Assembly (NCBI GenBank): GCA_022072055.1
Contig: JAJVIK010000011.1
Location: 1 to 64,000, forward strand
Source of the DNA: a bacterium
GTDB lineage: Bacteria; Hinthialibacterota; Hinthialibacteria; OLB16
Reading direction: 5' to 3'
Length of the DNA: 64,000 nucleotides
Shown one piece after another: positions 3,100 to 47,035 of this stretch. Made by a program: the position numbers and the translations under genes. Every line of letters begins with the position of its first letter. The stretch's first letter is position 1. Under the pieces are notes generated by a model, which did not search any database, had not been told where the DNA came from, and was given only the letters and a program-made list of their open reading frames with translations.

Positions 3100-3108
3100 A
3101 TCCGACCA

Positions 3109-3927: not shown

Positions 3928-4015
3928 GGAACTCCTCCTTCAAGGCTTGCTTGTCTAGGCTTCATGGCGCGAAGTCATTACGCTACCTCATTCCACGGCT
4001 CCCGTGCAGACTGAA

Positions 4016-5587: not shown

Positions 5588-5593
5588 ACTGCC

Positions 5594-6274
5594 ATGCCGC
5601 GCCTTTACTACACCGAAACCCAGCCGCTTGAGGGCTGGCGCAAGAAACATGATGTGATCCGGTTCCATTGGTGGTGGTGGGTCAATCGCCTTTACATGCG
5701 CTTCTGGTTTCGACTGTCCGTGGAGGGGGACGAAAACATTCCCACCTCCGGCCCCGCGATCCTCACCAGCAACCACATCGGATTTCTGGACGCCAACATC
5801 ATTTCGGCGGCCTCGCCCCGAAAGGTCTCCTTCATGATCGCGCGGGAGTGGCACGACCAGACCGGGGTCAATTGGATGTGCCGCTTCCTGGGTTGCATCC
5901 CAGTAAACCGCAGCGGCCAGGACATCGCCGCGGTCAAGGGGGCGCTCAAGGCCCTCTCCCAAGGGCATCTGCTGGGGGCCTTCCCCGAGGGTGGGATCAG
6001 CGAGAGCGGGGAAATGCGGGATTCCAAGCTCGGAATTGCCCTCTTGGCGATTCGCTCCGGAGTCCCGGTGGTCCCCATCCACCTCTCCGGTTATCGGATT
6101 CAATCCCTCCCGGCGACTTTCTTCCTCCCGAAGAAGCTGAGCATCCGGGTCGGCAAACCCCTTGTGTTTAAGGAGGAGGACCACAAGAATCGAGAGAGCC
6201 TCGAGCGGGTCACCGAAGCGGTGAGCGAGGCGATACGCTGCCTCGGAAATGGCGCGGATAACGATGCCGGGTAA
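5594..6274 (+). CDS. 1-acyl-sn-glycerol-3-phosphate acyltransferase family protein (PlsC-like)
   Basis: 226 residues. The acyltransferase H-x4-D motif is at residues 61-66 (N-H-I-G-F-L-D), followed by a substrate-binding F-P-E-G-G-I-S near residue 135 and a P-V-V-P-I-H-L-S stretch, the standard order of motifs I, III and IV in the PlsC/LPLAT family. Such enzymes move an acyl chain from acyl-ACP or acyl-CoA onto lysophosphatidate at the inner membrane. W-W-W-W near residue 26 may anchor it at the membrane surface. Its last 26 bases overlap the start of the AsmA-like gene, so the two are probably translationally coupled. Whether it is the housekeeping PlsC or a modifier of another glycolipid is not clear. 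Confidence 0.88.
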   Translation: MPRLYYTETQPLEGWRKKHDVIRFHWWWWVNRLYMRFWFRLSVEGDENIPTSGPAILTSNHIGFLDANIISAASPRKVSFMIAREWHDQTGVNWMCRFLGCIPVNRSGQDIAAVKGALKALSQGHLLGAFPEGGISESGEMRDSKLGIALLAIRSGVPVVPIHLSGYRIQSLPATFFLPKKLSIRVGKPLVFKEEDHKNRESLERVTEAVSEAIRCLGNGADNDAG

Positions 6275-16624: not shown

Positions 16625-16638
16625 CGCATCCTCCGCCC

Positions 16639-18297: not shown

Positions 18298-18311
18298 CCG
18301 CTCGGTCTGGG

Positions 18312-19436
18312 TCACCGGGGTGGTTCGTATTCGAGGCCCAGCGGGCCGATGTACTCGGCGTCGGGACGGATCAGGCGGTTGTTTTCGAATTGTTCGATGA
18401 CATGCGCCGCCCATCCCGATATTCGACTCGCGGCAAAAATCGGGGTGTACATGGGCACCGGAATTCCCAGCAGGCGGTAAACCCACGCGCAGGGGAAGTC
18501 CACGTTCGGGAAGAGGTTCTTCTCCCGTTTCATGACTGCCTCGATGGCGTCCGCGATGTCCGCGAAGCGGGTGTCTCCGCGCTTCTCGGCCAGTTTCCTC
18601 CCAGCCTCGCGGAGAGAAACCGCGCGGCTGTCGCACTGCTTATAGACACGGTGACCGAATCCCATGATCTTCTTCTTCTGACGGAGCGCGTCCATCACCC
18701 ATGGCTCCGCCTTGTCCACCTCGCCGACCTCCTCCAGCATGGTCATCGCGGCCTCATTGGCTCCGCCGTGGAGCGGCCCCTTGAGCGTGCCGATGGCGCC
18801 GGTGATGGATGAGTGGAGATCCGAGAGCGTGGAGGCGCACACTCGGGCGGTGAAGGTCGAGGCGTTGTACCCATGTTCGGCGTACAGCACAAGCGAGAGG
18901 TTCATCACCGCGACATCATCAGAGTCCGGAACCTTCCCGGTGAGTTGAAGCAGAAGATTCCCGGCGTGGTTGAGATCGGATCGGGCTTCGGGCATGGCGC
19001 GCTTGGCCGACTTGGCGGCGAGAGCGCCAAGGACAAGGGGGGCCTTGGCCAGAAGACGGATCGCCTTGCGGATGTTGGCCTCGCGGGAATTGTCCTCCAC
19101 ATCCGGGTCCCATCCGGCGGTGGCCGATAGAGCGGTGCGGAGCGCATCCATCGGGTGCATCTGATCGGGCAGGGCGCGGATCAGATTCAGGATCGGCTGC
19201 TCCAGGCTCCGCGCCGTATGCAGGTCGCGCTTAAACTTATCCAGCTCCGCCAGGGAAGGGAGCCTTCCCAGAAGGAGCAAATGGGCGGTTTCCTCGAATT
19301 CGCCACGATGTCCAAGCTCCGAGGCGTCATAGCCTCGATAGATCAGTTTGTCGACATCGGAGCGGACATCGGAAAGCGAGGTTCTTCCGGCGACAATTCC
19401 TTCAAGGCCGGGGCTGTAGTGGGGATGGTCATGCAT
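18312..19436 (-). CDS. Citrate synthase / 2-methylcitrate synthase
   Basis: 374 residues, normal for the short bacterial type. Signatures include the N-terminal G-L-E-G-I-V-A-G-R-T-S, the active-site helix S-L-V-L-Y-A-E-H-G-Y-N-A-S-T-F, K-G-P-L-H-G-G-A-N-E-A-A-M with the CoA/oxaloacetate histidine, G-F-G-H-R-V-Y-K, and F-P-N-V-D-F. The enzyme condenses acetyl-CoA or propionyl-CoA with oxaloacetate. A methylisocitrate lyase (PrpB) is encoded 4 kb away on the same strand, so the methylcitrate role is possible, but sequence alone does not separate PrpC from CitZ/GltA. The ATG at 19436 has AGGAG about 14 bases upstream. An intrinsic terminator upstream (19522-19559) insulates it from msrB. Confidence 0.9.
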   Translation of the reverse strand: MHDHPHYSPGLEGIVAGRTSLSDVRSDVDKLIYRGYDASELGHRGEFEETAHLLLLGRLPSLAELDKFKRDLHTARSLEQPILNLIRALPDQMHPMDALRTALSATAGWDPDVEDNSREANIRKAIRLLAKAPLVLGALAAKSAKRAMPEARSDLNHAGNLLLQLTGKVPDSDDVAVMNLSLVLYAEHGYNASTFTARVCASTLSDLHSSITGAIGTLKGPLHGGANEAAMTMLEEVGEVDKAEPWVMDALRQKKKIMGFGHRVYKQCDSRAVSLREAGRKLAEKRGDTRFADIADAIEAVMKREKNLFPNVDFPCAWVYRLLGIPVPMYTPIFAASRISGWAAHVIEQFENNRLIRPDAEYIGPLGLEYEPPR

Positions 19437-28621: not shown

Positions 28622-29941
28622 ATGGAACCAGGCCGTCCACCGCGCATCGCCTTTGTCGATCTGACCTTTAACTGGCCCCCCGTGGGAGGGTGTTGGGTGG
28701 ATCTCAAAGAGGTCATGGCCGGGCTTGCCCGGAGGGGCCATGAGGTCTGTCTGTTCGTTCCGGTCTGGACCGATTACTACCCGCGTGGGGACATCCGCGC
28801 CGAGCTCCCATTCCCTGTCCGCAAGGTCCATTTCAGCCGCTTCACCTTCAACGCCTGGCATCTCCGGAAACGGTTGGGCGCGCTGGTGCGGGAATGGAAT
28901 CCGGACATCGTGTTCCTGGGGGATGGCTATCACCTCAAACCTCATCTGCTCGACCATTTCTCCCGTTCCTTCCCGACAATCTGCCGGTTCTACGCCTACG
29001 ATGTGAACTGCCTCAACCTGCACTACTGGCTCTACAACGAGGGGCGCATCTGCGATGGTGGATTTCTGACCGACCCCGGTCGCTGCCACCGCTGCTGGCA
29101 CCCCCGTGGTTCTTTCAAAGGGCGTCTCATTGAGATCGCCAAAGGCCGTCCGGACCGTCACCCGGAGCTCCACTTCACCCAGGAATACGCCGCCGCGCTG
29201 GCCTTTACCCCCTGGTACCGCCGGAATCTGCCGAAGTGGCTCGCGCGCGCCGAGGGGCTGATTGTCTACAACGATTTTATCGCCGACTTCTTCCTCCCGG
29301 TTTCGGACAAGGTGCGGGTGATCCCCTCCGGGGTGGACACGCGGCGATTCCAACCCCAAGGGAACAGAGCCGCCACAAGAGAACGATCTTCGCGCCCCGT
29401 CATCCTCGTTCCGGGGCGGATCAACGATGAGCTCAAGGGATTCGAGACCGTGTGGGAGGCTTGTCGGAGGTTGCGAGAACAGGGTTTCGATTTCGAGGCG
29501 CGGGTGACCGCCGCGATGGAGTTTCGTTTCGAGGCGGATTGGATTGTGAACCTGGGGTGGGTTTCCCAAGACAAGGTCCCGGAGCTTTATCGGGATGTGG
29601 ACATTGTGGTGGTTCCGAGCCTGTGGGTGGAGCCCTTCGGGATCACCACGCTGGAGGCCATGGCTTCGGGGCTTCCGGTGGTCGGGTCCCGCATTGGGGG
29701 CATCGCCGAAACCCTGGTGGATGGGGTCACCGGACTGCACTTCGAGGCGGGGGACGCGAAGGGGCTTGCGGATGCCCTGCGCCGCTTGCTCACGGACCCC
29801 ACCCTGAGGGAGAGGCTCGGCGCGGCGGGCCGTTACCGAGCCGAGTCGGAATACGACTGGGAGGTCGTGATCGACCGCCACTACACGGGTTGGTTTGAAT
29901 CGATCCTCAGGGAGCGCCATGCGTATCCTCGGCATCAGTGA
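28622..29941 (+). CDS. GT4 family glycosyltransferase
   Basis: 439 residues. N-terminal Rossmann half with F-N-W-P-P-V-G-G-C-W and L-A-R-R-G-H-E-V; a central cysteine-bearing insert (R-C-H-R-C-W-H near 155) looks unusual for the family; then V-I-P-S-G-V-D-T-R-R-F and the donor-site block E-P-F-G-I-T-T-L-E-A-M-A-S-G-L-P-V-V-G near residue 338. It is a retaining NDP-sugar glycosyltransferase. Its last 23 bases overlap the carbamoyltransferase start, so the products are probably made together and act on the same molecule: a carbamoylated glycan or glycosylated metabolite (inference). Confidence 0.87.
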   Translation: MEPGRPPRIAFVDLTFNWPPVGGCWVDLKEVMAGLARRGHEVCLFVPVWTDYYPRGDIRAELPFPVRKVHFSRFTFNAWHLRKRLGALVREWNPDIVFLGDGYHLKPHLLDHFSRSFPTICRFYAYDVNCLNLHYWLYNEGRICDGGFLTDPGRCHRCWHPRGSFKGRLIEIAKGRPDRHPELHFTQEYAAALAFTPWYRRNLPKWLARAEGLIVYNDFIADFFLPVSDKVRVIPSGVDTRRFQPQGNRAATRERSSRPVILVPGRINDELKGFETVWEACRRLREQGFDFEARVTAAMEFRFEADWIVNLGWVSQDKVPELYRDVDIVVVPSLWVEPFGITTLEAMASGLPVVGSRIGGIAETLVDGVTGLHFEAGDAKGLADALRRLLTDPTLRERLGAAGRYRAESEYDWEVVIDRHYTGWFESILRERHAYPRHQ

Positions 29942-31616
29942 GCTCGATAACGACGCCGGCGCCTGCGCGCTTGTGGATGGCCGGATTGTGGCCGCCGCGA
30001 ACGAGGAGCGCTTCTCGCGGATCAAGCAGCATGCCGGGTTTCCCACACGGGCCGTGGAGTGGATCTGCTCGGAGCTCGGACTTAAACCGCGCGAATTCGA
30101 TGGAGTGGCCATCGCCAAGCCCCCCGCCGAGGAGGAGATCCGCCTGGTCCGCGCGCCTCTCGCGAAATACTCCTGGAACTCCGAGAACCACTCCACGGCC
30201 CTGGAGAAATGGCTCACCCGCGCGGCTTTCCGGTTCCACCGTTTCCCCAAACATGCTCGCTCGGCGCGCGCCTTGAACCGCGAACTGGAGGATTGGCTTC
30301 GGCGCTCGGGGATGGAGGCTTCGCGGCTGTATCGAGTCGACCACCACCGCGCGCACGCTCTTTCCGCTTATTACGCCTCCGGTTTTGACTCGGCTTTGGT
30401 GGCCACCTGCGATGGCCAAGGGGCCGGGGTCACCGGAACACTCCGGGTCGGGGAAGGGAACGAGCTCCGCAAGCTACAGACTGTCTTCCTGCCCCACTCC
30501 ATGGGCAATTTCTACGCCGCGGCCACCCGCGCGCTTGGCTTTCTCCCAAACCGCCATGAGGGCAAGGTGACCGGACTCGCGGCCTTCGGACACCCCTCCG
30601 AGGAAGACCTCAACGTCATTCGCCGGCTCGCCTGGTTTGAGGGGGACTCTTATCACTCGCCCTGCGTGCATGGGGCCTACCCCGGCCTCTTGAGGTTCCG
30701 CGATCAGGTCGGGAAGGAGCGCTTTGCGGCGTGCTTCCAGCAAATCCTCGAGGAGGTGGTGACCGGCTGGGTTCGGAGCGGCCTGCGCTTGACCGGCAAG
30801 GTCCGGGTCGCGCTTGCGGGGGGTGTGTTCGCCAATGTGAAGCTCAACCAGCGCATCGCGGAGATCGGGGGGGTGGAGGAGGTGTTTGTCTTCCCCGGGA
30901 TGGCGGATGGGGGACTGGGGCATGGGGCCGCGCTGGGATGGGATCAGGACCTCGGCGCGCGCGAAGCCGTGCATGGGCTTGAGCATGTCTTCTGGGGACC
31001 TGAGCCAAGAGAGGCGGAGTGCGAGGCGGCGCTGGCTTCCTCCGCGTGGGAGTGGTCGCGCCCGAACAACCTGGAAGCGGAGATTGCGCGTCTCTTGGGC
31101 CAAGGGAAAACAGTGGCAGTCTGCCGGGGGAGGCTGGAATTCGGTCCGCGCGCGCTTGGGCACCGCAGCATTCTCTACCAGGCGACCGATCCCACGGTCA
31201 ACGACTGGCTCAACCGCAAACTGCGCCGCACCGAGTTCATGCCTTTCGCGCCGATGACACGGAGTGAGGATCTTGAAACGTGCTATCAGGGGTTCACCTC
31301 GAAATCCTCGGCGCGCTTCATGACCATCACCACGGACTGCTCGCGTGAGATGAGTGAGAAATGCCCGGCGGTGGTCCATGTGGATGGGACCGCGCGCCCC
31401 CAGATTGTCGCCCCGGAAGGCGAGCCTTTCGCCCACCGTGTGCTGACAGAGTATCAGCGCCTCACCGGGCTTCCGTGCCTGATCAACACCAGCTTCAACC
31501 TGCACGAGGAACCGATTGTTTGCAGCGTGTCGGATGCGGTTCGCGCGGCTGGGGAGGCCTCTCTGGATGCCCTGGTTCTCGGACCTTACCTGGCGCTCCT
31601 TTCCCAACGCGGGTGA
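29919..31616 (+). CDS. Carbamoyltransferase (NodU/CmcH family)
   Basis: 565 residues. The N-terminal Kae1-like half opens M-R-I-L-G-I-S-E-L-D-N-D-A-G-A and has E-E-R-F-S-R-I-K, then R-V-D-H-H-R-A-H-A-L-S-A-Y with the metal-binding histidines, and A-T-C-D-G-Q-G-A-G. The C-terminal YrdC-like half has F-G-P-R-A-L-G-H-R-S-I-L and ends with L-P-C-L-I-N-T-S-F-N-L-H-E-E-P-I. These enzymes use carbamoyl phosphate and ATP to carbamoylate hydroxyls of Nod factors, antibiotics or sugars. ATG 29919 sits inside the glycosyltransferase end with AGGGAG upstream. The acceptor here is unknown. Confidence 0.92.
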   Translation: MRILGISELDNDAGACALVDGRIVAAANEERFSRIKQHAGFPTRAVEWICSELGLKPREFDGVAIAKPPAEEEIRLVRAPLAKYSWNSENHSTALEKWLTRAAFRFHRFPKHARSARALNRELEDWLRRSGMEASRLYRVDHHRAHALSAYYASGFDSALVATCDGQGAGVTGTLRVGEGNELRKLQTVFLPHSMGNFYAAATRALGFLPNRHEGKVTGLAAFGHPSEEDLNVIRRLAWFEGDSYHSPCVHGAYPGLLRFRDQVGKERFAACFQQILEEVVTGWVRSGLRLTGKVRVALAGGVFANVKLNQRIAEIGGVEEVFVFPGMADGGLGHGAALGWDQDLGAREAVHGLEHVFWGPEPREAECEAALASSAWEWSRPNNLEAEIARLLGQGKTVAVCRGRLEFGPRALGHRSILYQATDPTVNDWLNRKLRRTEFMPFAPMTRSEDLETCYQGFTSKSSARFMTITTDCSREMSEKCPAVVHVDGTARPQIVAPEGEPFAHRVLTEYQRLTGLPCLINTSFNLHEEPIVCSVSDAVRAAGEASLDALVLGPYLALLSQRG

Positions 31617-36001: not shown

Positions 36002-36079
36002 GATTCCCGCATGCGGCAGATCCGCTGATTCTCAAGACCCAGTGAGTTGGTCTTCTTCCAGGAGGGGAAGTTATCCGCC

Positions 36080-36832
36080 ATGAAACCCACGTCATCGCTT
36101 CTTTCAATGTTGCTCGCCGGGAGTGTCCTGGTTTCCCTGTGGGGCTGTGGAGGAGGGGAGCCTCCCAAGCCCGCTCAGAAGGCCGAGAAGAAAGAGGTCG
36201 CCAAGCCCGCCCCGAAGGCGGATGTCAAAGAGGCTCCCAAACCGGCTCAGAAAGTTGAGAAGAAAGTGGAGCCCAAAGAGCAGACCGCCCCCACCAAGCC
36301 ACAAGCGCCTGTTCAGGGTGCAAAGGCCGATTCGAGTGACCTGATCGATTTTGCGTCCCTCAAGAACTATCCGGAACTGGCATATACCGCGACAGAAAAC
36401 GAACCTGGGAACGGGGATGTTCGCTGCGCTCTCATGGATGGGGCCCGGCCACTCACCCCGGAAGGCAAACCCGCCAACGGATATTGGTGCGCGCCCACTC
36501 CGGCTCAGATGGAAATCGCCCTGAGCGACCCCAAGGGCGCCTGCTGGATCTCGTCCGTGGAGGTCGAGGGCACCCAGGGCGACTATGTATTCTCGGAGTG
36601 TTCCATCAACATCAAGACTCAAGAGAATCCCGCCTGGCATTCCCCCGAGGGTTTAATGGTCAATAGTCCCCAGGGCGCATCTCCGGGGAGCCAGGCGACC
36701 GGGGCGAGATATGTGTTCTCGTTCACCCCCGTGGCGGCCACCCATGTGCAGATCACGGTCACCAAGGGAGGGGTGAGGCGCACCCCACGAGCCTATGTCA
36801 GGGATATCGATGTTCTTGGGGTCGTGAAATAG
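36080..36832 (+). CDS. Lipoprotein with Lys/Pro/Glu-rich linker and beta-sandwich-like domain
   Basis: 250 residues. The signal peptide ends in a lipobox (L-V-S-L-W-G-C), so the mature Cys near residue 23 should be lipidated. Residues 30-75 are a low-complexity linker built from imperfect P-K-P-A-Q-K-A/V-E-K-K units, likely extended through the periplasm. The rest, with W-I-S-S-V-E-V-E-G-T-Q-G-D and F-T-P-V-A-A-T-H-V-Q-I, resembles a discoidin/F5-8C-like sandwich but I am not sure. The Ehr operon begins 45 bases after its stop; whether it belongs to the complex is open. Confidence 0.6.
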   Translation: MKPTSSLLSMLLAGSVLVSLWGCGGGEPPKPAQKAEKKEVAKPAPKADVKEAPKPAQKVEKKVEPKEQTAPTKPQAPVQGAKADSSDLIDFASLKNYPELAYTATENEPGNGDVRCALMDGARPLTPEGKPANGYWCAPTPAQMEIALSDPKGACWISSVEVEGTQGDYVFSECSINIKTQENPAWHSPEGLMVNSPQGASPGSQATGARYVFSFTPVAATHVQITVTKGGVRRTPRAYVRDIDVLGVVK

Positions 36833-36877: not shown

Positions 36878-38875
36878 ATGCCTTTGATTCTCGTTGAGGT
36901 TTCCGCCGCCCTGTTGCTGTTGAGCGGCGTTGCAGACCTTCCACGCTTGGGCGGTCCCCGCGCCACAAAGTGGGTCGGGTCGTTAATCGCGCTCATCGGA
37001 TCGGCTCTCGGAGTCGCGGCGTCCGTGTGGGCCCTCACCCAGGCCTCCGAGGCCAGCCAGAGCATTTCGTGGAACTTGCCGGGGGGCGACCTGGATTTGG
37101 GGCTCGATCCGTTGAGCGCCTTCTTCCTGGTCCCCATTTTTTTTGTTGGCGGGTTGGGGACCCTCTATCAGATCGGGTATTGGGACCCCGCCTCTCATCC
37201 CCGCAACTTTCGAGCTCACCGCTTCTTCTGGGGGCTCCTCCAAGGGGGCCTTGCCCTGCTGGTCCTCGCGCGAAACGGCGTGGCCTTTCTCTTCGGATGG
37301 GAGGTCATGGCCCTTTCGGCCTTTTTCCTGATCTCAACGGAGGACCAGCGTGAAGAGGTTCGAGAGGCGGCCTGGGTTTACCTGGTGGCCACGCATGTCG
37401 GAACCCTTAGCCTGTTTGGGATGTTTTCCCTTCTTTGGGCATCGACCGGGTCGTTCGGATGGGGAACGCTCGACCTTGGGGGGCAGGAAACCTGGCGACT
37501 CTGGGGGGTCTTCGCGCTCGCAATCATCGGTTTCGGACTTAAGGCTGGACTGATGCCGCTCCACTTCTGGCTTCCCGGCGCGCACGCCAACGCCCCCAGC
37601 CATGTTTCCGCCATGCTCTCGGGGGTGGTGATCAAGATGGGGATCTATGGCTTGGCTCGGTTGCTTTCCATGATCCCGCAACCGCCCTTGAGCTGGGGTG
37701 GTTTGCTTCTGCTCCTTGGGGCCGTGAGCTGCGTGGGCGGGGTCCTGTTCGCGATTGGCCAACATGACCTCAAGCGACTGCTCGCCTATCACAGCGTGGA
37801 GAACATCGGAATCATCCTCATGGGGCTGGGATTGGCGCTTATCGGGCGGTCCACGGGAAGGCGTGATCTTCTGATGCTTGGGATGGCGGGCTGCCTCCTC
37901 CATGTCTGGAACCACGGCCTGTTCAAGCCGCTCCTCTTCTTCGGGGCCGGCGCGGTTCTGCACACAACCCAAACGCGAGAGATGGATGCTCTTGGCGGGC
38001 TTGCCGGACGGATGCCGTGGACCGCGGGTCTTTTCCTGGTCGGAGCGCTCTCGATTTGCGGCCTTCCGCCATTCAATGGATTTGTCAGCGAACTCTTCAT
38101 TTACTTGGGATTCTTCCGAGGCCTCCTCACCGTGGATGGAGCCTCCTACCCGGCGGTCGCGCTGGGAGCGCCCATCCTCGCGATCGTCGGGGCGCTGGCG
38201 GTGGCCTGCTTTGTCAAAGTTTACGGAGTGGTGTTTCTTGGCTCTCCTCGGAGCTCGGCGGTCGCAAGCGCCCAGGAGCCCCCACTTACCATGCGGAGCG
38301 CCATGGCCCCCCTGGCGGTTGCTTGCGTGGGAATCGGTGTCGCGCCGTTCCTGGTCGCGCGACTCCTTGAGCATGCGGTGCGGACCTGGGGCGGAGAGAG
38401 CCTCTCCCCTGTCCGCGCGGCGGACATTGAGGCGTGGGTTCCGCTCGGTTGGCTGACCTTCTTGGGATTGGCGCTGATCCTCTCCATCGGCGTCTTGTTC
38501 CTCCGTTTTTCGCGAGTTTGGGGGCGCTCCACGGCGAGGAGCGTGACCTGGGACTGTGGCTATGCGGCGCCAACTCCGCGGATGCAATACACGTCGTCCT
38601 CCTTCGCGAAGATCCTGGTCGATCAGTTCTCTTGGGTTCTGCATCCCAAGGGAGAACAACCTCAGATCCGGGGCTTCTTCCCAACCACGGTCAAGCGCCA
38701 TTCCTGGGTGGAGGATCGAGTTCTTGGGGAGATCATCCACCCCTTGGCGAAAGCGCTGGAGAGGCTTTGCGCGAGACTGCGCCCGCTTCAGCAGGGAAAA
38801 CTTCAGGCATACCTCCTCTATGTGTTCATCATCCTTGGAATTCTGTTGATTTGGGGTGCTCTGGGGGCGCCTTGA
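36878..38875 (+). CDS. Ehr complex proton-pumping subunit, HyfB/HycC-like (copy 1)
   Basis: 665 residues with about 14-16 transmembrane helices, the antiporter-like (NuoL/MrpA) fold of hydrogenase-4 component B. Typical are L-D-P-L-S-A-F-F-L-V-P-I-F-F, W-E-V-M-A-L-S-A-F-F-L-I-S, P-L-H-F-W-L-P-G-A-H-A-N-A-P-S-H-V-S and K-P-L-L-F-F-G-A-G. After the helices the tail has T-W-D-C-G-Y-A-A-P-T-P-R-M-Q-Y, a stretch shared by HyfB proteins. Such subunits couple electron flow to H+ (or Na+) translocation in the inner membrane. The second copy is encoded 850 bases downstream, with the regulator gene in between. Confidence 0.9.
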   Translation: MPLILVEVSAALLLLSGVADLPRLGGPRATKWVGSLIALIGSALGVAASVWALTQASEASQSISWNLPGGDLDLGLDPLSAFFLVPIFFVGGLGTLYQIGYWDPASHPRNFRAHRFFWGLLQGGLALLVLARNGVAFLFGWEVMALSAFFLISTEDQREEVREAAWVYLVATHVGTLSLFGMFSLLWASTGSFGWGTLDLGGQETWRLWGVFALAIIGFGLKAGLMPLHFWLPGAHANAPSHVSAMLSGVVIKMGIYGLARLLSMIPQPPLSWGGLLLLLGAVSCVGGVLFAIGQHDLKRLLAYHSVENIGIILMGLGLALIGRSTGRRDLLMLGMAGCLLHVWNHGLFKPLLFFGAGAVLHTTQTREMDALGGLAGRMPWTAGLFLVGALSICGLPPFNGFVSELFIYLGFFRGLLTVDGASYPAVALGAPILAIVGALAVACFVKVYGVVFLGSPRSSAVASAQEPPLTMRSAMAPLAVACVGIGVAPFLVARLLEHAVRTWGGESLSPVRAADIEAWVPLGWLTFLGLALILSIGVLFLRFSRVWGRSTARSVTWDCGYAAPTPRMQYTSSSFAKILVDQFSWVLHPKGEQPQIRGFFPTTVKRHSWVEDRVLGEIIHPLAKALERLCARLRPLQQGKLQAYLLYVFIILGILLIWGALGAP

Positions 38876-38901
38876 AGAGAGATTCCTCCTTCAGTTCCTC
38901 C

Positions 38902-38930
38902 TTGACAGTTGGGACCACTTGGAAAAGAAT
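38902..38930 (+). promoter_or_regulatory. Candidate sigma-70 promoter of the HTH/IIA regulator
   Basis: TTGACA and AAGAAT lie 17 bases apart within the 103-base gap before the regulator gene. The -35 box is perfect and the -10 box matches four of six. It could drive the regulator and the rest of the operon apart from the first hyfB. Confidence 0.45.
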
Positions 38931-38978
38931 GTCCAAAGTTGTCTATGCTGGGAGGGAGTTGAGGGTTTCGGGGGAGAA

Positions 38979-39713
38979 ATGCAGCTCGGAGTCAAAGAAG
39001 CCGCCAGCCTGTTGGAAGTTTCCGAAAAAACCATCTACCGGTGGATCAAGCAGGGGACCATCCCGGCCTACAAGCTGAACGAGCAGTACCGCTTTAATCG
39101 CGCGGAGCTCCTGGAGTGGGCCACTTCTCGGCGAATCCATATCTCGCCCGAGATTTTCTCCGAAGTCGACGCCAGCCGCCTACCGCTTCCATCGGTCTCA
39201 GAGGCGCTTCAGGCGGGCGGGATTTTTTACCGGATTGGTGGCCAGGATAAGAACACGGTTTTGAGAGCGGTTGTGGACACCTTGCGCGTTCCGGAGGAAG
39301 TGGACCGCGAGTTTCTCTATCAGGTTCTGCTGGCCCGCGAGGCTCTCGGCTCGACCGGAATTGGGGATGGGATCGCCATTCCGCATGTCCGCAACCCGAT
39401 TGTTCTGCATCTGCCGCGTCCCACGATCACGCTCTGCTTCCTGGAGAATCCCATCGAGTTCGGGGCGTTGGACGGCAACCCCGTGACCACCTTATTCACC
39501 CTGATCAGCCCCTCGGTCCGGGCGCATCTGCACATGCTGTCGCGGCTTGGCTTCATCCTCCGTAACAAAGACTTCCGGGCGCATCTCTCCGAACAGTCCT
39601 CGCGCGAGGAGCTCCTGCGCGCGCTCAAGGCCGCGGAGGAGGTGCTCCCTCCCCCTCCACCCCCGGTCACGGAACCCCAGCTTCCGAGGGGAGACCGGGT
39701 GGGCGGGGAGTAG
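38979..39713 (+). CDS. HTH DNA-binding protein with PTS IIA (PtsN-like) domain
   Basis: 244 residues. Residues 1-50 are a MerR/excisionase-type helix-turn-helix: V-K-E-A-A-S-L-L-E-V-S-E-K-T-I-Y-R-W-I. Residues 75-220 form a IIA domain of the mannitol/fructose/PtsN type, with the phospho-acceptor histidine at 136 in G-I-A-I-P-H-V-R-N-P. The end is Pro-rich (residues 225-235). This suggests a regulator sensing phosphoryl flow, perhaps from PTS-Ntr-like proteins, controlling the surrounding operon (inference). Start ATG 38979 has GGGGGAG close upstream. It lies exactly between the two hyfB paralogues. Confidence 0.85.
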   Translation: MQLGVKEAASLLEVSEKTIYRWIKQGTIPAYKLNEQYRFNRAELLEWATSRRIHISPEIFSEVDASRLPLPSVSEALQAGGIFYRIGGQDKNTVLRAVVDTLRVPEEVDREFLYQVLLAREALGSTGIGDGIAIPHVRNPIVLHLPRPTITLCFLENPIEFGALDGNPVTTLFTLISPSVRAHLHMLSRLGFILRNKDFRAHLSEQSSREELLRALKAAEEVLPPPPPPVTEPQLPRGDRVGGE

Positions 39714-39725
39714 AGGAGACCGAGG

Positions 39726-41693
39726 GTGATTCTACTTGTCTTGGAAGCCGCCGCCGCGCTCGCGCTTCTGAGCGGAGTCCCGGTCCTTCTGAGTGGGGCC
39801 GGCTCCATTCACGCGAGAGCTTTTGGGAGGGTCTTGGGTCTGCTTGGCTCCACAACGGGTCTCGTCGCTTCCATGTGGAGTCTCTGCTCGCACAACCATT
39901 CCCGCCAAGACTTCGCCTGGAGCCTTCCAGGAGCATCCTTGAGTCTGGGATTGGACCCGCTCAGTGCTTTCTTTCTGGTCCCAATCTTCCTGATCGGCGG
40001 TTTGGGGACCCTGTACCAGGCCGGTTACTGGACCCCCTCCATTCACCCTCGCAACTACAGGCGTCATTGTTTCTGCTGGGGGTTGCTCCAGGCCTCCATG
40101 GCGCTTGTGGTCATTGCTCGTCACGGTGTCCTTTTTCTCTTCGCCTGGGAGCTCATGGCGCTCTCCGCCTACTTCCTCATCTCGACCGAAGACCAATTGG
40201 AGGAGGTCCGCGAGGCGGGATGGGTCTACTTGGTCGCCACCCATGTCGGAACTCTCTCTCTATTTGGGATGTTTGCCCTGATGAAGACCCTTTCAGGCGC
40301 CTTGGAGTGGCATCCGCTCCCGACCGGGGCGCCGGAGGACTGGCGGCTCTTCGCGGTGTTTCTCCTCGGGCTTGTGGGGTTTGGAATCAAGGCCGGGATC
40401 ATGCCGCTACACTTTTGGCTTCCCGGAGCGCACGCCAACGCCCCCAGCCATGTCTCAGCGATTCTCTCCGGGGTCATGCTCAAGATGGGAGTCTACGGTT
40501 TGGTCAGAACCCTTTCGCTGTTTCCCGATCCGCCTGTCGCTTGGGGCGCGATCCTCCTCGTCCTGGGAGCTGCCTCGGGTTTTCTTGGAATCTGGCTCGC
40601 AATGGCCAATCAGGACCTCAAGCGCCTCCTCGCCTACAGTAGCGTGGAGAATGTGGGAATCCTCCTGATGGGACTGGGGCTAGCGGTCATCGGGCGAGCC
40701 TTGGGAAGGGAGGACCTGCAGGTCCTCGGAATGGGTGGATGCCTCTTACATGTCTGGAACCATGCTCTGTTCAAGCCACTTCTCTTCTTTGGCGCCGGGT
40801 CCGTGCTGCATGCCACTCATTCTCGGCAACTCGATGTTTTGGGGGGACTCTCCAGACGCATGCCCCTTACCGCCGCGCTTTTTCTGATCGGGGCGCTGTC
40901 GATCAGCGCGCTTCCGCCCCTGAACGGATTTGTGAGTGAACTTCTCATCTATCAGGGCCTTTTCCGCGCTTCCCAAGCGCTGGATGGAGGGGGCTGGGCA
41001 GGGGCGGCCTTGAGCGCTCCGATCCTGGCGATGATTGGGGCGCTCGCGGCGGCCTGTTTCGTCAAGGTTTCGGGGGTCGCGTTCCTGGGGGCTCCACGCA
41101 CCCCACGGGCGGAAGCCGCACGCGAGTCCCCGGGGTCCATGCTGGCTCCCATGGGAATCCTGGCCGCATGCTGTCTGGCGGTGGGCGTGCTTCCTGTCGG
41201 AGTGGCTCCATTCCTTGAGGCCGCGACCGAGTGTTGGATTGGAGAAACTCTCGTCGCAAACGGGGAAGGAACACTCGGCGCGATTGCGCCCTTGCGCGAC
41301 ATCGGTCTGCTCAGCGGGGCGCTTGCCATCGGGATAGCCTCAGTCTCCCTGCTCCTCTTGCCAAGAATGAAGAAGGTCGTGGGCCGACAGATGACCTGGG
41401 ACTGCGGTTACTCCTCACCCGGTCCGCGGATGCAGTACAGCGCCTCCTCGTTCGCGCGAATCCTGGCCAAACCGCTTGAGTGGGTTTCCCACCCGACCTC
41501 GGCGTTCCCCCGGTTGGTCGGCCTTTTCCCGGAAAAGGGGCCTTTCAAGCCCCAAGAGTCGCGAAGCTTCCCGGAGGGGGGCCTTCAGCCGTATCTCACC
41601 CGTCTTGTGGAACACGGCAGGCTTCAGCTGAACCTCGCGCTCTTTGTTCTGATCCTTGGGATTCTCCTGTTCTTGGGGAGGCTCGACCCATGA
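39726..41693 (+). CDS. Ehr complex proton-pumping subunit, HyfB/HycC-like (copy 2)
   Basis: 655 residues from a GTG, with the same architecture as copy 1 and clear similarity end to end, including L-D-P-L-S-A-F-F-L-V-P-I-F-L, L-P-G-A-H-A-N-A-P-S-H-V-S and the tail W-D-C-G-Y-S-S-P-G-P-R-M-Q-Y. The two genes are most simply a tandem duplication followed by divergence, and the complex may hold both subunits as two separate ion channels. It starts 12 bases after the regulator and overlaps hyfC by four bases (ATGA). Confidence 0.9.
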   Translation: MILLVLEAAAALALLSGVPVLLSGAGSIHARAFGRVLGLLGSTTGLVASMWSLCSHNHSRQDFAWSLPGASLSLGLDPLSAFFLVPIFLIGGLGTLYQAGYWTPSIHPRNYRRHCFCWGLLQASMALVVIARHGVLFLFAWELMALSAYFLISTEDQLEEVREAGWVYLVATHVGTLSLFGMFALMKTLSGALEWHPLPTGAPEDWRLFAVFLLGLVGFGIKAGIMPLHFWLPGAHANAPSHVSAILSGVMLKMGVYGLVRTLSLFPDPPVAWGAILLVLGAASGFLGIWLAMANQDLKRLLAYSSVENVGILLMGLGLAVIGRALGREDLQVLGMGGCLLHVWNHALFKPLLFFGAGSVLHATHSRQLDVLGGLSRRMPLTAALFLIGALSISALPPLNGFVSELLIYQGLFRASQALDGGGWAGAALSAPILAMIGALAAACFVKVSGVAFLGAPRTPRAEAARESPGSMLAPMGILAACCLAVGVLPVGVAPFLEAATECWIGETLVANGEGTLGAIAPLRDIGLLSGALAIGIASVSLLLLPRMKKVVGRQMTWDCGYSSPGPRMQYSASSFARILAKPLEWVSHPTSAFPRLVGLFPEKGPFKPQESRSFPEGGLQPYLTRLVEHGRLQLNLALFVLILGILLFLGRLDP

Positions 41694-42601
41694 GGGCGGC
41701 GGAATTCGCAATCCACTTGCTGCTCCTGCTGGCGTTTCCTCCGATCCTCTTGGGGGTGATCAACAAGACCAAAGCCGCCTTCGCGGGCCGTGTCGGCGCG
41801 CCGCTGCTCCAACCATACCACGATCTCCTCAAACTTTTTCGAAAGGGCTTGGTCCTGAGCGAGACCACCACCTGGGTGTTCACCCTGGCGCCGGCGGCGG
41901 CGCTCCTCGCGGTCATCCTGGCGGGGATGCTGCTTCCGGCGGGTCCCCTGGATGCTCCGATTCGATTCACCGGCGACATGATCCTGTTTGTGTACCTTCT
42001 CGGTTTGGCCAGGTTCCTGATCGCCACCGCCGCCCTCGACACCGGCTCTTCGTTTGAGGGAATGGGCGCCGCGCGCGAGGTTTCCTTCGCCTGTCTCGCG
42101 GAAGGAGCGGTCCTGTTTGCCTTCCTGGTTCTCGCGAAGAACTCTGGAGCGCTGGCTCTCAGCTCGATGTTGCGCGGTGTTGAGGAAGTGGAATGGGGAA
42201 TCGCCGCCGCGCCGCTTCTTCTGATTTCAGCGGGACTTTTCATCGTGGTTCTCGCCGAAAACTGCCGGGTTCCCTTCGATGACCCGAACACCCACCTCGA
42301 ACTCACCATGATTCATGAGGTGATGGTCCTGGACCATGGGGGTCCCCTGCTCGGCCTGATCCTCTATGGCGCGGCCATCAAACTCTACATCCTCGGGGCG
42401 CTGCTCGTTCAAGTGTTGATCCCCTTCGACAACATCGGTCCCGGCGGCGCGCCGGTCTTCGTGGCGGGACTGCTCGGACTCGCGGTCGCCATCGGGGTGG
42501 TTGAATCGATCATGGCCCGCCTGCAGCTCCGTCACATCCCCTATCTCCTCACCGCCGCGACCCTGTTCTGCGCGTTTGGATTTCTCTTGGTGACCAGGTA
42601 A
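41690..42601 (+). CDS. Ehr complex membrane subunit, HyfC/HycD-like (NuoH family)
   Basis: 303 residues with about eight helices. It has G-R-V-G-A-P-L-L-Q-P-Y-H-D-L-L-K-L after helix 1, the stretch that in NuoH contacts the quinone site and in HycD the hydrogenase module; then E-G-M-G-A-A-R-E-V-S and E-N-C-R-V-P-F-D-D-P-N-T-H-L-E-L-T-M, the standard acidic loop. In the complex it joins the soluble redox arm to the membrane pumps. The start follows the hyfB stop with a four-base overlap. Confidence 0.92.
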   Translation: MRAAEFAIHLLLLLAFPPILLGVINKTKAAFAGRVGAPLLQPYHDLLKLFRKGLVLSETTTWVFTLAPAAALLAVILAGMLLPAGPLDAPIRFTGDMILFVYLLGLARFLIATAALDTGSSFEGMGAAREVSFACLAEGAVLFAFLVLAKNSGALALSSMLRGVEEVEWGIAAAPLLLISAGLFIVVLAENCRVPFDDPNTHLELTMIHEVMVLDHGGPLLGLILYGAAIKLYILGALLVQVLIPFDNIGPGGAPVFVAGLLGLAVAIGVVESIMARLQLRHIPYLLTAATLFCAFGFLLVTR

Positions 42602-42609
42602 CGGATCCC

Positions 42610-43248
42610 ATGCCCGTGCTCGACTCGCTCCTTATCGTGGTGCTCCTCTTGAACCTCTTTGTTCTTGGCACAAGCCGGATCTACGCGGTGATCCGCGCGG
42701 TTTCAGTGCAGGGCGCGCTCTTGGGTTTCATGCCTTTGCTGGTCCACGAAAAGATCGGGATTCAAACTGCGCTCCTGTCCGCGGCCACCGTCCTTCTCAA
42801 GGGAATCGTGATACCGAGGATGCTGATGCACGCCATGCGTGAAGCGCGGATCAAGCGCGAGGTGGAGCCTTTCATCGGGCTGCTTACTTCGATGGTTCTT
42901 GGAGCCGTGGCGGCTGGAGTGTCCGTGCTGGCCGCGCGAGAGCTTCCGCTCGCGGCCGGGCATGCCGCCTCGCTGGTGGTTCCATCCGCCCTAGCCACCT
43001 CCTTCACCGGATTCATCCTCCTGGTCACTCGTCTGAAGGCCATCAGTCAGGTCACCGGCTTTCTGCTGCTTGAAAACGGCATCTTCATCTTCGCCTTGCT
43101 GCTTCTGGAGGCGATGCCGTTCATTGTCGAGATCGGGGTCCTGCTCGACCTGTTCGTCGGCATCTTTCTGATCGGGATCATCGTGGAGCACATGAACCGG
43201 GAGTTTTCCTCCCTGGACACACGCCACTTGACCACCCTTAAGGAATGA
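42610..43248 (+). CDS. Ehr complex membrane subunit, HyfE-like
   Basis: 212 residues with five to seven hydrophobic helices. The head (V-L-L-L-N-L-F-V-L-G-T-S-R-I) and the basic loop R-M-L-M-H-A-M-R-E-A-R-I-K-R-E-V-E are typical of hydrogenase-4 component E, which contains a NuoK-like core with extra helices. It sits between hyfC and hyfF with gaps of 8 and 4 bases, as in other hyf-type operons. Confidence 0.88.
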   Translation: MPVLDSLLIVVLLLNLFVLGTSRIYAVIRAVSVQGALLGFMPLLVHEKIGIQTALLSAATVLLKGIVIPRMLMHAMREARIKREVEPFIGLLTSMVLGAVAAGVSVLAARELPLAAGHAASLVVPSALATSFTGFILLVTRLKAISQVTGFLLLENGIFIFALLLLEAMPFIVEIGVLLDLFVGIFLIGIIVEHMNREFSSLDTRHLTTLKE

Positions 43249-43252
43249 TTCG

Positions 43253-44686
43253 ATGAGCCTCGGTTCGATCTGGTTTCCCTTGGTCATGGCGCTGCTCGCC
43301 TTCGGTCTTCCCTCGAACCGCTGGCGTCCCTGGCTCCTGCCGGCAAGCGGCCTCGCTCACCTATTGTTCTTTGCCCTCGGAATCACGGCCGAACGGGTTC
43401 CGGCGGATAGCCACTGGTTGGCCCTTGATCCCTTGGGCAAGTTGGTTCTCGGCCTGATCAGCGTGTTGTTCCTCCCGTGCTCCTTCTACGCCGCGGGCTA
43501 CCTGAACCGGAGAGGAGAGCGCTCCAACCGAATCTTCTGCTCCTGCCTCCTCGTGTTCCTTGCGATGATGAGCTTGGTTTGTTGGTCTCAACATCTGGGG
43601 CTCCTGTGGGTGGCGATTGATGCCACGACGCTCGCCTCCGGACCTCTGATCTATTTTAATCGCACTCCGAGATCCATTGAGGCGGCTTGGAAGTACCTGA
43701 TGGTCTGCTCGGTCGGGATTGCCCTCGCTCTATTGGGCTCGCTCTTCCTGGCATACGCCTCCCTGCATGGGGGGGAGGAATCGAGCCTGATCTTCGGCGA
43801 CCTGTTGCTACATGCTCCCCAGCTCTCCAAGCCGTGGGTTCACGCAGGATTCGTGCTGCTCCTGGTAGGCTATGGAACCAAGATGGGACTCGCCCCGATG
43901 CACACCTGGAAGCCCGATGCCTATGGGGAGGCTCCGGGGGTGGTTGGGGCGCTGCTGGCGGGAGGCCTCGCCAACTGCGCGTTCCTTGCCATCCTGCGAG
44001 TGCATCAGGTTTGCATCGCGGCGGGCGAGGGGGAATACGCGAGCCGTTTGCTCCTCTTCGTGGCGCTCCTTTCAATGGCCTGCGCGGCGGTCTTCATGGT
44101 CGGGCAAAAGGATTTCAAACGCATGCTCGCTTATTCGAGCATCGAGCACATGGGCATCCTCGCGCTTGGAGTGGGCGTGGGCGGACTCGGGGCCCAAGGG
44201 GCGCTCTTGCACATGGTCAATAACGGACTCACCAAGGGGGTCCTGTTTCTGTCCGCGGGGAATCTCCATCGGGCCTATGGCGATAAGACCACAGATGCGG
44301 TCCGGGGCGCGCTCATCCGGTCCCCGCTGTCGGGCTGGCTGTTCCTCCTGGGGTTTCTTGCCATCACCGGTTCGCCCCCCTTTGCCCCCTTTGTTAGCGA
44401 GTTTTCCATCCTCCGCTCGATGGTTGAATCAGGGCGTCACCTTCCCGCCGCCGCGTTCCTGGCGTTCCTCCTCGTGATCTTCGTTGGGATGGGGAAAACA
44501 GTTCTTTCCGTGGTCCAGGGGAATCCTCCCGAAGGAGCCGACCAGGCAGGGGAGCGCGAAGGAGTGTTTACCAGTCTTCCCATTGTGATGCTGATGGGGG
44601 CTGTCTTGATGCTCGGAGTCTGGATTCCGGAGCCGCTATCCTCCCTTGTGGATTCAGCCGCCCGTTTCCTGGAGCTCAAGTCATGA
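43253..44686 (+). CDS. Ehr complex proton-pumping subunit, HyfF-like (NuoN/NuoL family)
   Basis: 477 residues with about 13-14 helices of the antiporter-like fold: G-Y-G-T-K-M-G-L-A-P-M-H-T-W-K-P-D-A, then M-L-A-Y-S-S-I-E-H-M-G-I-L, the pattern of hydrogenase-4 component F. With the two HyfB copies it makes three potential ion pumps in the complex. It lacks the long lateral-helix tail of NuoL. It overlaps the large-subunit gene by four bases (ATGA). Confidence 0.9.
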   Translation: MSLGSIWFPLVMALLAFGLPSNRWRPWLLPASGLAHLLFFALGITAERVPADSHWLALDPLGKLVLGLISVLFLPCSFYAAGYLNRRGERSNRIFCSCLLVFLAMMSLVCWSQHLGLLWVAIDATTLASGPLIYFNRTPRSIEAAWKYLMVCSVGIALALLGSLFLAYASLHGGEESSLIFGDLLLHAPQLSKPWVHAGFVLLLVGYGTKMGLAPMHTWKPDAYGEAPGVVGALLAGGLANCAFLAILRVHQVCIAAGEGEYASRLLLFVALLSMACAAVFMVGQKDFKRMLAYSSIEHMGILALGVGVGGLGAQGALLHMVNNGLTKGVLFLSAGNLHRAYGDKTTDAVRGALIRSPLSGWLFLLGFLAITGSPPFAPFVSEFSILRSMVESGRHLPAAAFLAFLLVIFVGMGKTVLSVVQGNPPEGADQAGEREGVFTSLPIVMLMGAVLMLGVWIPEPLSSLVDSAARFLELKS

Positions 44687-46200
44687 TTCCCGGACAGAGC
44701 GGCTTCGCGCCGGTGGCCAACAGCCGTCCGCTTCCATTAGGGGAGATCCGGATTCTGCCCTGGGAGGATTTCCACGCAAACCTGCTCCAGGCGGTCTCAA
44801 GAGGCGGGAGAGTGGCCGCGCTGTTTGGGATGAGTCCTCACGGCGAGAATCAACTCTTCCTGGTTCTCGCCGATGACACCGACAATAAGCTCTGGCTGGC
44901 GCGCACACGGCTCGAAGGCCCCAGTTTTCCTTCGCTGACCCCTTCCTGCCCCCAGGTGCATCTCTTCGAGCGCGAGATCGCGGAGCAGCGCGGGTGGGCG
45001 CCGCAGGGGCACCCTTGGCTCAAGCCTGTGCGGTTTTCCTTCGCCTTTCGGAGCGGTCCGGCGGCGCCCGAGGCTGCTCCCACCATCGGAGTCACGGATT
45101 TCTACCGAGTCGAGGGGGACGAAATCCACGAGGTGGCGGTCGGGCCTGTTCATGCCGGAGTCATTGAACCGGGTCACTTCCGGTTTCAGTGTCATGGCGA
45201 GGAGGTTCTCCACCTCGAGATTTCTCTTGGCTACCAGCATCGTGGGGTGGAGCGCGCGCTGATCGGAGGTCCCGACAAGCGCTCGATCCACTACATGGAG
45301 ACCCTCGCGGGGGACTCAACAGCTGCTCATTCCACGGCGTACTGCCAGGTGATGGAGGCGCTTGGGCGCTGCAAGGAGCCGGCGCGTTCTCAAGTGATCC
45401 GCGGGATTGCACTCGAACTGGAGCGAATCGCCAACCATGTGGGGGACCTGGGCGCCTTGTCGGGGGATGTCGCCTTCCTGCCCACGGCATCGTTCTGTGG
45501 GCGCCTGCGAGGCGATTTCCTGAACATGACAGCGCTCCTGTGCGGAAACCGATTCGGTCGCGGCCTGGCCCGACCCGGTGGAGTCCGGTTCGATCTTTCA
45601 ACCGAGCTCGCCGAGGAGCTTCTGCAACGCCTGGATTCCGTGGAATCCGATTTGGCGAGCGCGGTCAACCTGCTCTGGGACACCCCGTCGGTGATGGCTC
45701 GATTCGAGGGGGCTGGTCCTCTTCTGAAAGAGGATGCCGCCGAGCTCGGGATTGTCGGTCCGGCCGCACGGGCCTCCGGTCTGCTGCGCGACACTCGACA
45801 CGATCAGCCTTGGGGGATCTATCGCTTCGTTCACATCCCGGTCTCCACCGGAGGCCCGGGAGATGTCTTTGCGCGCGCGCATGTGCGCTGGCTGGAGGTC
45901 CAGCGTTCAATGGCGTTTGTTCGCGAGCAGTTGAGGACCCTGCCCGGTGGACCTCATCGCGCCGAGTGTGGGTCGCTTGCGCCGGAATCCGTTTGTGTCT
46001 CTCTTGTTGAGGGGTGGCGCGGCGAAGTGTGTCATGTGGCGGTCACGGATTCCGAGGGTCATTTCCTGGCCTACAAAGTGGTTGATCCCTCTTTTCACAA
46101 CTGGACCGGACTCGCGCTTGCGCTCCGGAACCAGCAGATTTCTGATTTTCCGCTGTGCAACAAAAGTTTCAACCTTTCCTATTGTGGACATGATCTATGA
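44683..46200 (+). CDS. Ehr complex large subunit, HyfG-like (NuoCD fold) without NiFe ligands
   Basis: 505 residues: a NuoC-like N-terminal domain (to about 140), then a NuoD/hydrogenase-large-subunit domain with V-G-P-V-H-A-G-V-I-E-P-G-H-F-R-F, Y-Q-H-R-G-V-E and L-E-R-I-A-N-H-V-G-D-L. In group 4 [NiFe] hydrogenases two CxxC pairs bind the metal. Here the first position reads T-L-A-G-D-S-T-A-A-H-S and the C-terminus D-F-P-L-C-N-K-S-F-N-L-S-Y-C-G-H-D-L, so neither pair is present. It should therefore not evolve H2. Known relatives are called energy-converting-hydrogenase-related (Ehr) complexes, of unproven substrate. Confidence 0.9.
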   Translation: MIPGQSGFAPVANSRPLPLGEIRILPWEDFHANLLQAVSRGGRVAALFGMSPHGENQLFLVLADDTDNKLWLARTRLEGPSFPSLTPSCPQVHLFEREIAEQRGWAPQGHPWLKPVRFSFAFRSGPAAPEAAPTIGVTDFYRVEGDEIHEVAVGPVHAGVIEPGHFRFQCHGEEVLHLEISLGYQHRGVERALIGGPDKRSIHYMETLAGDSTAAHSTAYCQVMEALGRCKEPARSQVIRGIALELERIANHVGDLGALSGDVAFLPTASFCGRLRGDFLNMTALLCGNRFGRGLARPGGVRFDLSTELAEELLQRLDSVESDLASAVNLLWDTPSVMARFEGAGPLLKEDAAELGIVGPAARASGLLRDTRHDQPWGIYRFVHIPVSTGGPGDVFARAHVRWLEVQRSMAFVREQLRTLPGGPHRAECGSLAPESVCVSLVEGWRGEVCHVAVTDSEGHFLAYKVVDPSFHNWTGLALALRNQQISDFPLCNKSFNLSYCGHDL

Positions 46201-46246
46201 ACACGAGGCAAGGTCAATTCATGGTTTACCGCGGGGGGGCTGAGAG

Positions 46247-47035
46247 ATGCTGAAGATTCTCCTCACTCGGCTCCGCCAAGGTCACCGAACCCTCCGATTC
46301 CCCGATGGGCCGGCTCCGGAGATGCCGGATCGTTTCCGAGGACGGCCCGAGATCCATGCCGCGAAGTGCCCGGAACGTTGCAGCGAGTGCGCGGAGGCCT
46401 GTCCCACCGGGGCTATTGAAATCGGCGCGAAGGCCCGGATCGACCTCGGGAAATGCCTGTTTTGTTCAGACTGCGCGGATGCGTGTCCGGAGGGGGCGAT
46501 CTCTTACAGCCGGGATTACAGGCTGGCCGTGCGCGCTCGATCCGACCTGATTGTGGAGGAAGGGGTGGCCGTTCGTCTGGAAGGCGAACTGGATCGGGAG
46601 CTGAAACGCCTGTTTGGACGGTCCCTCAAACTTCGGCAGGTGAGCGCCGGAGGCTGCAACGCCTGCGAGTCGGATGTGAACGTGCTCAACACCGTCGCTT
46701 GGGATATCGGGCGTTTTGGGATTCAATTCGTGGCATCCCCACGTCATGCCGATGGACTTCTCATCACCGGCCCGGTCACCCGGAACATGCACTTGGGGCT
46801 GATGAAGACATACGCAGCTGTTCCGCCGCCGAAAATCGTGATCGCGGTGGGGGGCTGCGCCATCTCAGGCGGCCCCTACATCGATCACGGGGAGACCTGC
46901 GGGGGTGCGGAATCGGTTCTGCCGGTCGATCTGTATATCCCGGGGTGTCCGCCCCATCCTCTCACAATCCTCGATGGGCTTCTGCGTCTCCTAGGAAGGA
47001 TCAAGAACGGTGAGAGACCGGATGCAGCTCCTTGA
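46247..47035 (+). CDS. Ehr complex fused ferredoxin (HyfH-like) and NuoB-like (HyfI) subunit
   Basis: 262 residues. The first 90 form a two-cluster ferredoxin: Cys 41/45/48/52 and Cys 70/73/76/80. The first motif is C-x3-C-x2-C-x3-C rather than the usual C-x2-C-x2-C-x3-C. From residue 125 a NuoB-like domain follows with G-G-C-N-A-C-E (136,139), V-G-G-C-A-I (203) and P-G-C-P-P-H-P (233), the ligands of the terminal cluster next to the large subunit. In hyf/hyc operons these are usually two genes. It would pass electrons to the active site whose identity is unknown. It starts 46 bases after hyfG and ends the operon. Confidence 0.9.
   Translation: MLKILLTRLRQGHRTLRFPDGPAPEMPDRFRGRPEIHAAKCPERCSECAEACPTGAIEIGAKARIDLGKCLFCSDCADACPEGAISYSRDYRLAVRARSDLIVEEGVAVRLEGELDRELKRLFGRSLKLRQVSAGGCNACESDVNVLNTVAWDIGRFGIQFVASPRHADGLLITGPVTRNMHLGLMKTYAAVPPPKIVIAVGGCAISGGPYIDHGETCGGAESVLPVDLYIPGCPPHPLTILDGLLRLLGRIKNGERPDAAP

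Follow-up and report, generated by a model that had tools for sequence, protein, structure and literature searches.

What can a membrane complex of the complex I superfamily catalyze when its large subunit has neither the ligands of a [NiFe] centre nor the known quinone-site residues? The question is raised by an operon of a Hinthialibacterota bacterium (Hinthialibacteria, OLB16; contig JAJVIK010000011.1), which lies in a 64,000-nucleotide stretch of DNA called the window here.

Gene content and assignment of the operon

Eight consecutive genes, seven of them structural, occupy positions 36878-47035 of the plus strand, and all are open frames over this span (Table 1). The structural genes encode the HyfB1, HyfB2, HyfC, HyfE and HyfF proteins, a HyfG-like large subunit and a fusion of HyfH with HyfI. 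Both the identities and the order of these subunits confirm an earlier sequence-only reading, which had also counted eight genes but left the eighth, encoding an HTH-EIIA protein, without a name. The best NCBIfam match of both HyfB proteins is hydrogenase 4 subunit B (564.9 bits, 2.5e-169 for HyfB1; 529 bits for HyfB2), and that of HyfG is NuoD/49 kDa.

Table 1. Genes of the Ehr operon in the window, with their positions and domain or family matches
Gene product	Positions	Strand	Match	Remark
HyfB1, antiporter-like membrane subunit, 665 aa	36878..38875	+	PF00361 1.6e-49	C-terminal lateral-helix region
HTH-EIIA protein	38979..39713	+	PF12728 3.9e-18, PF00359 3.1e-27	between both hyfB genes
HyfB2, second antiporter-like subunit, 655 aa	39726..41693	+	PF00361 6.6e-56	
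HyfC, NuoH-like membrane subunit	41690..42601	+	PF00146 (NADHdh) 3.1e-28	
HyfE, membrane subunit	42610..43248	+	NCBIfam hydrogenase 4 membrane subunit 4.8e-19	
HyfF, third antiporter-like subunit, 477 aa	43253..44686	+	NCBIfam hydrogenase 4 subunit F 5.4e-102	
HyfG/EhrL, NuoC-NuoD-like large subunit	44683..46200	+	PF00346 1.5e-37	no NiFe ligands
HyfH-HyfI fusion/EhrS	46247..47035	+	PF01058 5.4e-26 and Fer4 domains	Pfam also Oxidored_q6

The operon is tight: by ORF coordinates hyfF overlaps hyfG by 4 bases, as does hyfB2 with hyfC, where the ATG of hyfC (read from the translation) overlaps the hyfB2 stop. It is followed by a YlxM-like gene (Pfam-tested) and then by ffh, rpsP, a KH-domain gene, rimM, trmD and rplS, as read from their translations. 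Immediately upstream of hyfB1, a putative lipoprotein with a Lys/Pro/Glu-rich linker and no Pfam match was observed at 36047-36832, and the stretch at 29895-31616 reads as a putative NodU-type carbamoyltransferase.

By its features, the complex can be assigned to the Ehr complexes, an already described kind. It combines a large subunit that resembles group 4 hydrogenases and lacks CxxC pairs with a HyfB/C/E/F-like membrane arm and an Fe-S small subunit, and its large subunit falls into a clade with the Geobacteraceae Ehr proteins, apart from hydrogenases (100/100). Operons of this kind were found in about 15 phyla. Among 386 sampled bacterial genomes, a set weighted to a few close relatives, 33 (about 8%) encode the fused small subunit. 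In Geobacter sulfurreducens, Ehr is encoded by GSU0739-0745, with EhrA-1, EhrC, EhrL and EhrS named after Coppi et al. (PMC7894505); Ehr was also described in Geobacter in a further study (PMC8691401) and reported from comammox Nitrospira (PMC10284858) and from Margulisbacteria/Saganbacteria (PMC6349859). The function of Ehr is given there as unknown or only proposed (PMC7894505, PMC8691401, PMC10284858, PMC6349859), and we found neither biochemistry nor a tested substrate for any Ehr in the literature, which agrees with the earlier statement that such complexes are known from surveys while their substrate is unproven.

The window complex shares with the G. sulfurreducens Ehr a NuoL-like EhrA-1 (a name that suggests a second such subunit), a HyfE-like EhrC and the large and small subunits, and a Geobacteraceae locus (L106) has the plan PTS-HyfB-HyfB-HyfC-HyfE-HyfF-HyfG-HyfHI. 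Unlike Geobacter Ehr, it has the order HyfB-PTS-HyfB, and both of its HyfB proteins appear to derive from one lineage-specific copy (see below).

A large subunit without NiFe or known quinone ligands

The VCGICG and DPCYSC motifs of the FHL subunit HycE align with LAGDST and NLSYCG, respectively, of the window HyfG. No CxxC pair was found in HyfG or in its 83 aligned Ehr relatives, and the four NiFe cysteine positions are occupied in the family by A, T/S (S in the window), S and G; the earlier claim that both pairs are missing thus stands. The quinone-site residues His38 and Tyr87 of Thermus Nqo4 align with I161 and G210 of HyfG, and these replacements are invariant and common to the 83 relatives, which come from many phyla. 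Other invariant residues are IEPGHFRF, GD at 210-211, S499, Y500, G502, D504 and L505. HyfG ends in ...SYCGHDL and has no cleavable tail, whereas E. coli HyfG and HycE run on past this point with a tail that is cleaved during maturation. Group 4 [NiFe] hydrogenases are recognized by two CxxC pairs and complex I by a His and a Tyr in the quinone site of its 49 kDa subunit; having neither set, the window complex is, judged by these ligands, neither a hydrogenase nor a canonical quinone reductase.

The best PDB match of HyfG is FHL subunit 5, both by sequence (1.5e-47) and by fold (TM 0.80). The AlphaFold monomer has a pLDDT of 81 and a pTM of 0.86 overall, with pLDDT below 50 at the pocket walls (135-173 and 487-505); because these segments are modelled without confidence, no substrate can be read from the model, and it was used for the fold search only.

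In a HyfG tree that took in Ehr sequences, CxxC-bearing hydrogenases and NuoD, the Ehr large subunits form a single clade, sister to E. coli HyfG/HycE (98/96). Sequences of three Geobacteraceae loci other than that of G. sulfurreducens (L087, L095 and L106) sit within this clade. The sequence-only reading had proposed this phylogeny as a check, and HyfG indeed was not placed within true hydrogenases. A grouping of Ehr with Nuo was disfavoured, not rejected (AU p = 0.06). Because of the sister position to HyfG/HycE, Ehr HyfG probably descends from a hydrogenase lineage. The same position would suit an ordinary [NiFe] hydrogenase whose sequence contains errors, a possibility that we regard as practically negligible, since identical ligand replacements occur in 83 relatives from many phyla, no C-terminal tail is present for the protease and HypD lacks a match in some host genomes. 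These observations refute it at the sequence level.

Of the 12 other genomes with a homologue of the Ehr large subunit (36-65% identity), five gave no HypD match, namely G028, G033, G055, G070 and G077. In each of the five the gene may be missing from an incomplete assembly, but four of them (G028, G033, G055 and G077) are 98-100% complete; G055, which is 98% complete, encodes a HyfG 60% identical to that of the window. The lack of HypD matches in these genomes argues that Ehr is independent of the machinery for the NiFe cofactor in those hosts. The genome of the window carries HypD as well as two other hydrogenase-like large subunits, and its HypD probably serves the latter.

In its composition, the window complex shares with E. 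coli Hyf/Hyc (PDB 7z0s) the subunit plan, the sister relationship of large subunits and the best fold match, and with Hyf the possession of three antiporter-like subunits. It differs from Hyf/Hyc by the absence of the NiFe cysteines and of the C-terminal processing tail and by the fusion of HyfH to HyfI, and from Hyf by the absence of HyfA and HyfD, a second HyfB standing where Hyf has HyfD. Complex I (Nuo) has the equivalent NuoC-D, NuoB, NuoI and NuoH and likewise three antiporter-like subunits, whereas the window complex lacks an NADH module, has the quinone-site His and Tyr replaced and carries a proximal cluster of the hydrogenase type (CxxC) in contrast to the tandem cysteines of cluster N2. 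The NADH-oxidising NuoE/F/G module is absent from the operon and does not recur beside the operons of relatives; a separate Nuo complex is encoded elsewhere in the genome.

Electron input and candidate reactions

The HyfH-HyfI fusion carries eight cysteines (41, 45, 48, 52, 70, 73, 76 and 80) that form two ferredoxin-type [4Fe-4S] motifs, followed by the ligands of a hydrogenase-type proximal cluster (CxxC...C...C; cysteines 137, 140, 204 and 234). All twelve are conserved at 93% or more in 80 relatives, in line with the earlier claim that the iron-sulfur ligands of the NuoB-like part are kept. The best PDB matches of the fusion are MbhJ and FHL subunit 7. At least 509 related fusion genes are present in a GTDB-species collection, from which the 80 relatives were fetched, and most of the fetched loci have the same gene order, so the pattern is not due to chance.

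Clustering of neighbouring genes at about 80 loci revealed no dehydrogenase or flavin subunit that recurs beside Ehr operons, which favours a soluble carrier as the electron donor. Large minus-strand families in this clustering were dismissed as shadow ORFs of Ehr genes because of their positions. The genome of the window encodes a full-length POR-family enzyme, a candidate ferredoxin reducer, and ferredoxin is the proposed donor.

Two loci have redox genes of their own in the vicinity. In a Kiritimatiellae locus (L058), the stretch at 2996-9334, downstream of the Ehr operon, contains non-recurrent NuoE- and NuoF-like genes together with putative Rex-like and FeFe-hydrogenase-like genes. In a Phycisphaerales locus (L075), genes for a CxxC-bearing group 4 hydrogenase are located at 15804-19293, about 6 kb past the Ehr operon.

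We consider it moderately probable that Ehr is a membrane redox pump of the complex I superfamily, of Hyf/Hyc-like descent, incapable of binding NiFe, fed by ferredoxin and under PTS-linked control by HTH-EIIA. In such a pump, the electrons of reduced ferredoxin would enter the fusion through both [4Fe-4S] clusters of its HyfH part, move on to the proximal cluster of its HyfI part and from there reach an acceptor in the remodelled pocket of HyfG. As this acceptor, we favour a quinone or some other small molecule of the cytosol or membrane over protons. The energy would be transmitted via HyfC to the three antiporter-like subunits, HyfF and both HyfB proteins, for the movement of H+ or Na+, and HTH-EIIA probably sets the transcription of the operon according to the phosphorylation state of a PTS-type relay of the cell.

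A different donor is suggested by Geobacter, where Ehr proteins are reported to rise on formate and a link to formate dehydrogenase was proposed. Ehr could then be the membrane-bound portion of a respiratory enzyme that oxidises formate, fed by a separately encoded formate dehydrogenase and not by ferredoxin, as already proposed for Riflemargulisbacteria and Saganbacteria (PMC6349859). The two molybdopterin oxidoreductase loci that the genome of the window has besides a match in the Nuo region encode candidate formate dehydrogenases. However, no fdh gene recurs beside the approximately 80 Ehr loci, the clusters of the fusion are exclusively ferredoxin-type and the operons have no recurrent additional HyfA/HycB-like linker, so we regard this arrangement as unlikely.

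The MBS complex of Pyrococcus likewise has no working NiFe site while its clusters are kept, and 6u8y_J/L are among the PDB sequence matches, so an MBS-like reduction of polysulfide directly at the proximal cluster has to be considered. It seems improbable, as FHL and complex I give better matches in both sequence and fold and the Ehr signature is also met in organisms without a known sulfur metabolism, reportedly including comammox Nitrospira (possibly with another subtype). Slightly less probable still is that the complex runs mainly in reverse, with the ion gradient driving uphill ferredoxin reduction from a quinol-level donor: complex I relatives are reversible, and this direction was proposed for extra-pump complexes in Nitrospira-like organisms (PMC9040806), but the POR-family enzyme of the genome can itself supply reduced ferredoxin. 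We retain the ferredoxin-fed pump as the preferred reading.

Pump subunits, hyfB duplication and the HTH-EIIA gene

The pump residues are kept, as the sequence-only reading had stated. HyfB1 and HyfB2 both have E142/K222/K253/E405, and HyfF has D123/K210/N241/E383, with E143 and N263 as counterparts of the first and third in E. coli HyfF; the TM5 acid, TM7 Lys and TM12 Glu are thus retained in all three, and the TM8 Lys position is N in the window HyfF as it is in E. coli HyfF. HyfC has the conserved acids E131, E139, E191, E205 and E211 (in a numbering one codon longer at the 5' end). With clusters and pump residues kept, redox-driven ion translocation by the complex is plausible.

The presence of two HyfB proteins had been called unusual, which does not hold, as many relatives have two. 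An increased ion/electron ratio, suggested on the same occasion, is plausible only in comparison with one-HyfB Ehr complexes, since complex I and E. coli Hyf normally have three antiporter-like subunits as well. A duplicated antiporter-like subunit is also shared with 2M complex I and the Complex_I_3 of Manganitrophaceae, which have more than three pumps and a lateral-helix insertion of about 26 aa (PMC9040806). In contrast, the window complex has three pumps in total and, by comparison of tail lengths, no such insertion in its HyfB proteins (C-terminal tails of 108 and 98 aa versus 105 aa in one-HyfB relatives).

Among the named loci, 13 have the order PTS-B1-B2-HyfC and 23 have PTS with one HyfB. 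The B1 and B2 proteins of Planctomycetota, Kiritimatiellota, Latescibacterota, Fibrobacterota, Spirochaetota and other phyla fall into two distinct clades, whereas HyfB1 and HyfB2 of the window, which are 56% identical, are sisters (100/100) inside the B1 clade. That the window pair is the same old B1/B2 pair was rejected for the whole length (AU p 9.5e-5) and for the antiporter core alone (AU p 0.0008) and was not rejected for the C-terminal third (AU p 0.55), the tested group having been named after the tree was seen. In trees by parts, the core groups with B1 (99) and the C-terminal third is nearer to B2 (90, unstarred). The window HyfB proteins thus appear to be a pair specific to this lineage, with a core of B1 type and possibly a tail of B2 type. 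The simplest scenario would be that a deletion first fused B1 with B2 and that the product was then duplicated in tandem together with the PTS gene; this would account for the order B-PTS-B as well. Ongoing gene conversion is unlikely, since core identity is 62-75% per segment with no near-identical block. The HyfB pairs of Phycisphaerae, Holophagaceae and Geobacteraceae look like further separate duplications.

The HTH-EIIA protein consists of an excisionase/MerR-like DNA-binding domain (HTH_17, residues 3-52) and a PtsN-like PTS EIIA domain (PTS_EIIA_2, residues 77-217) with the phospho-acceptor His136, whose motif GxGxAIPH is conserved in at least 93% of 41 homologues. It is the only non-structural neighbour that recurs beside Ehr operons in the neighbour clustering, being present at half of the 80 named loci (40; contig ends truncate many of the 80) and at 23 of the 32 whose sequence extends 1 kb or more upstream of the operon; the nine of these 32 without it are six Holophagaceae, two Geomonas and one Lentisphaerae locus. 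The genome of the window encodes EI together with HPr kinase and a PtsN-like EIIA at C19, and an HPr gene was not located in it, which leaves the phosphorelay incomplete as shown. Judging from domains, linkage and the ion transporters named below, HTH-EIIA may be a regulator of ion-transport systems. We found nothing in the literature that ties it to Ehr or to antiporters; its linkage and the lineage-specific re-duplication of hyfB were not found described and are the new parts here.

At other places, too, EIIA domains are associated with ion transporters. In the genome of the window, two neighbouring Na+/H+ exchangers each have a C-terminal PTS EIIA domain (G000:C4:100911-103138, L137). HTH-EIIA genes in same-class and other relatives (L142, L143, L144, L145 and L148) adjoin a 577-601 aa family of ClC-type channels, two of which, tested by Pfam, are ClC chloride channels with CBS domains. 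At another locus (L125, 5794-7209), two tandem HTH-EIIA genes directly precede the Ehr operon.

A broader proposal, which we put forward as tentative, is that Ehr represents a third catalytic type of the complex I superfamily, whose pocket, with the invariant signature IEPGHF / GD(T/S) / SY(C)G.DL, would bind neither NiFe nor, in the known manner, a quinone. A family of HTH-EIIA regulators dedicated to Ehr would couple ion pumping to the phosphorylation state of the PTS, and repeated tandem duplication of hyfB would let membrane pumps be gained or lost as modules. The pocket signature, the linked HTH-EIIA and the host genomes without a HypD match provide handles (residues, a regulator and organisms, respectively) for finding the function of Ehr, and the several separate duplications of hyfB illustrate how the pumping arm of such a complex can be reshaped.
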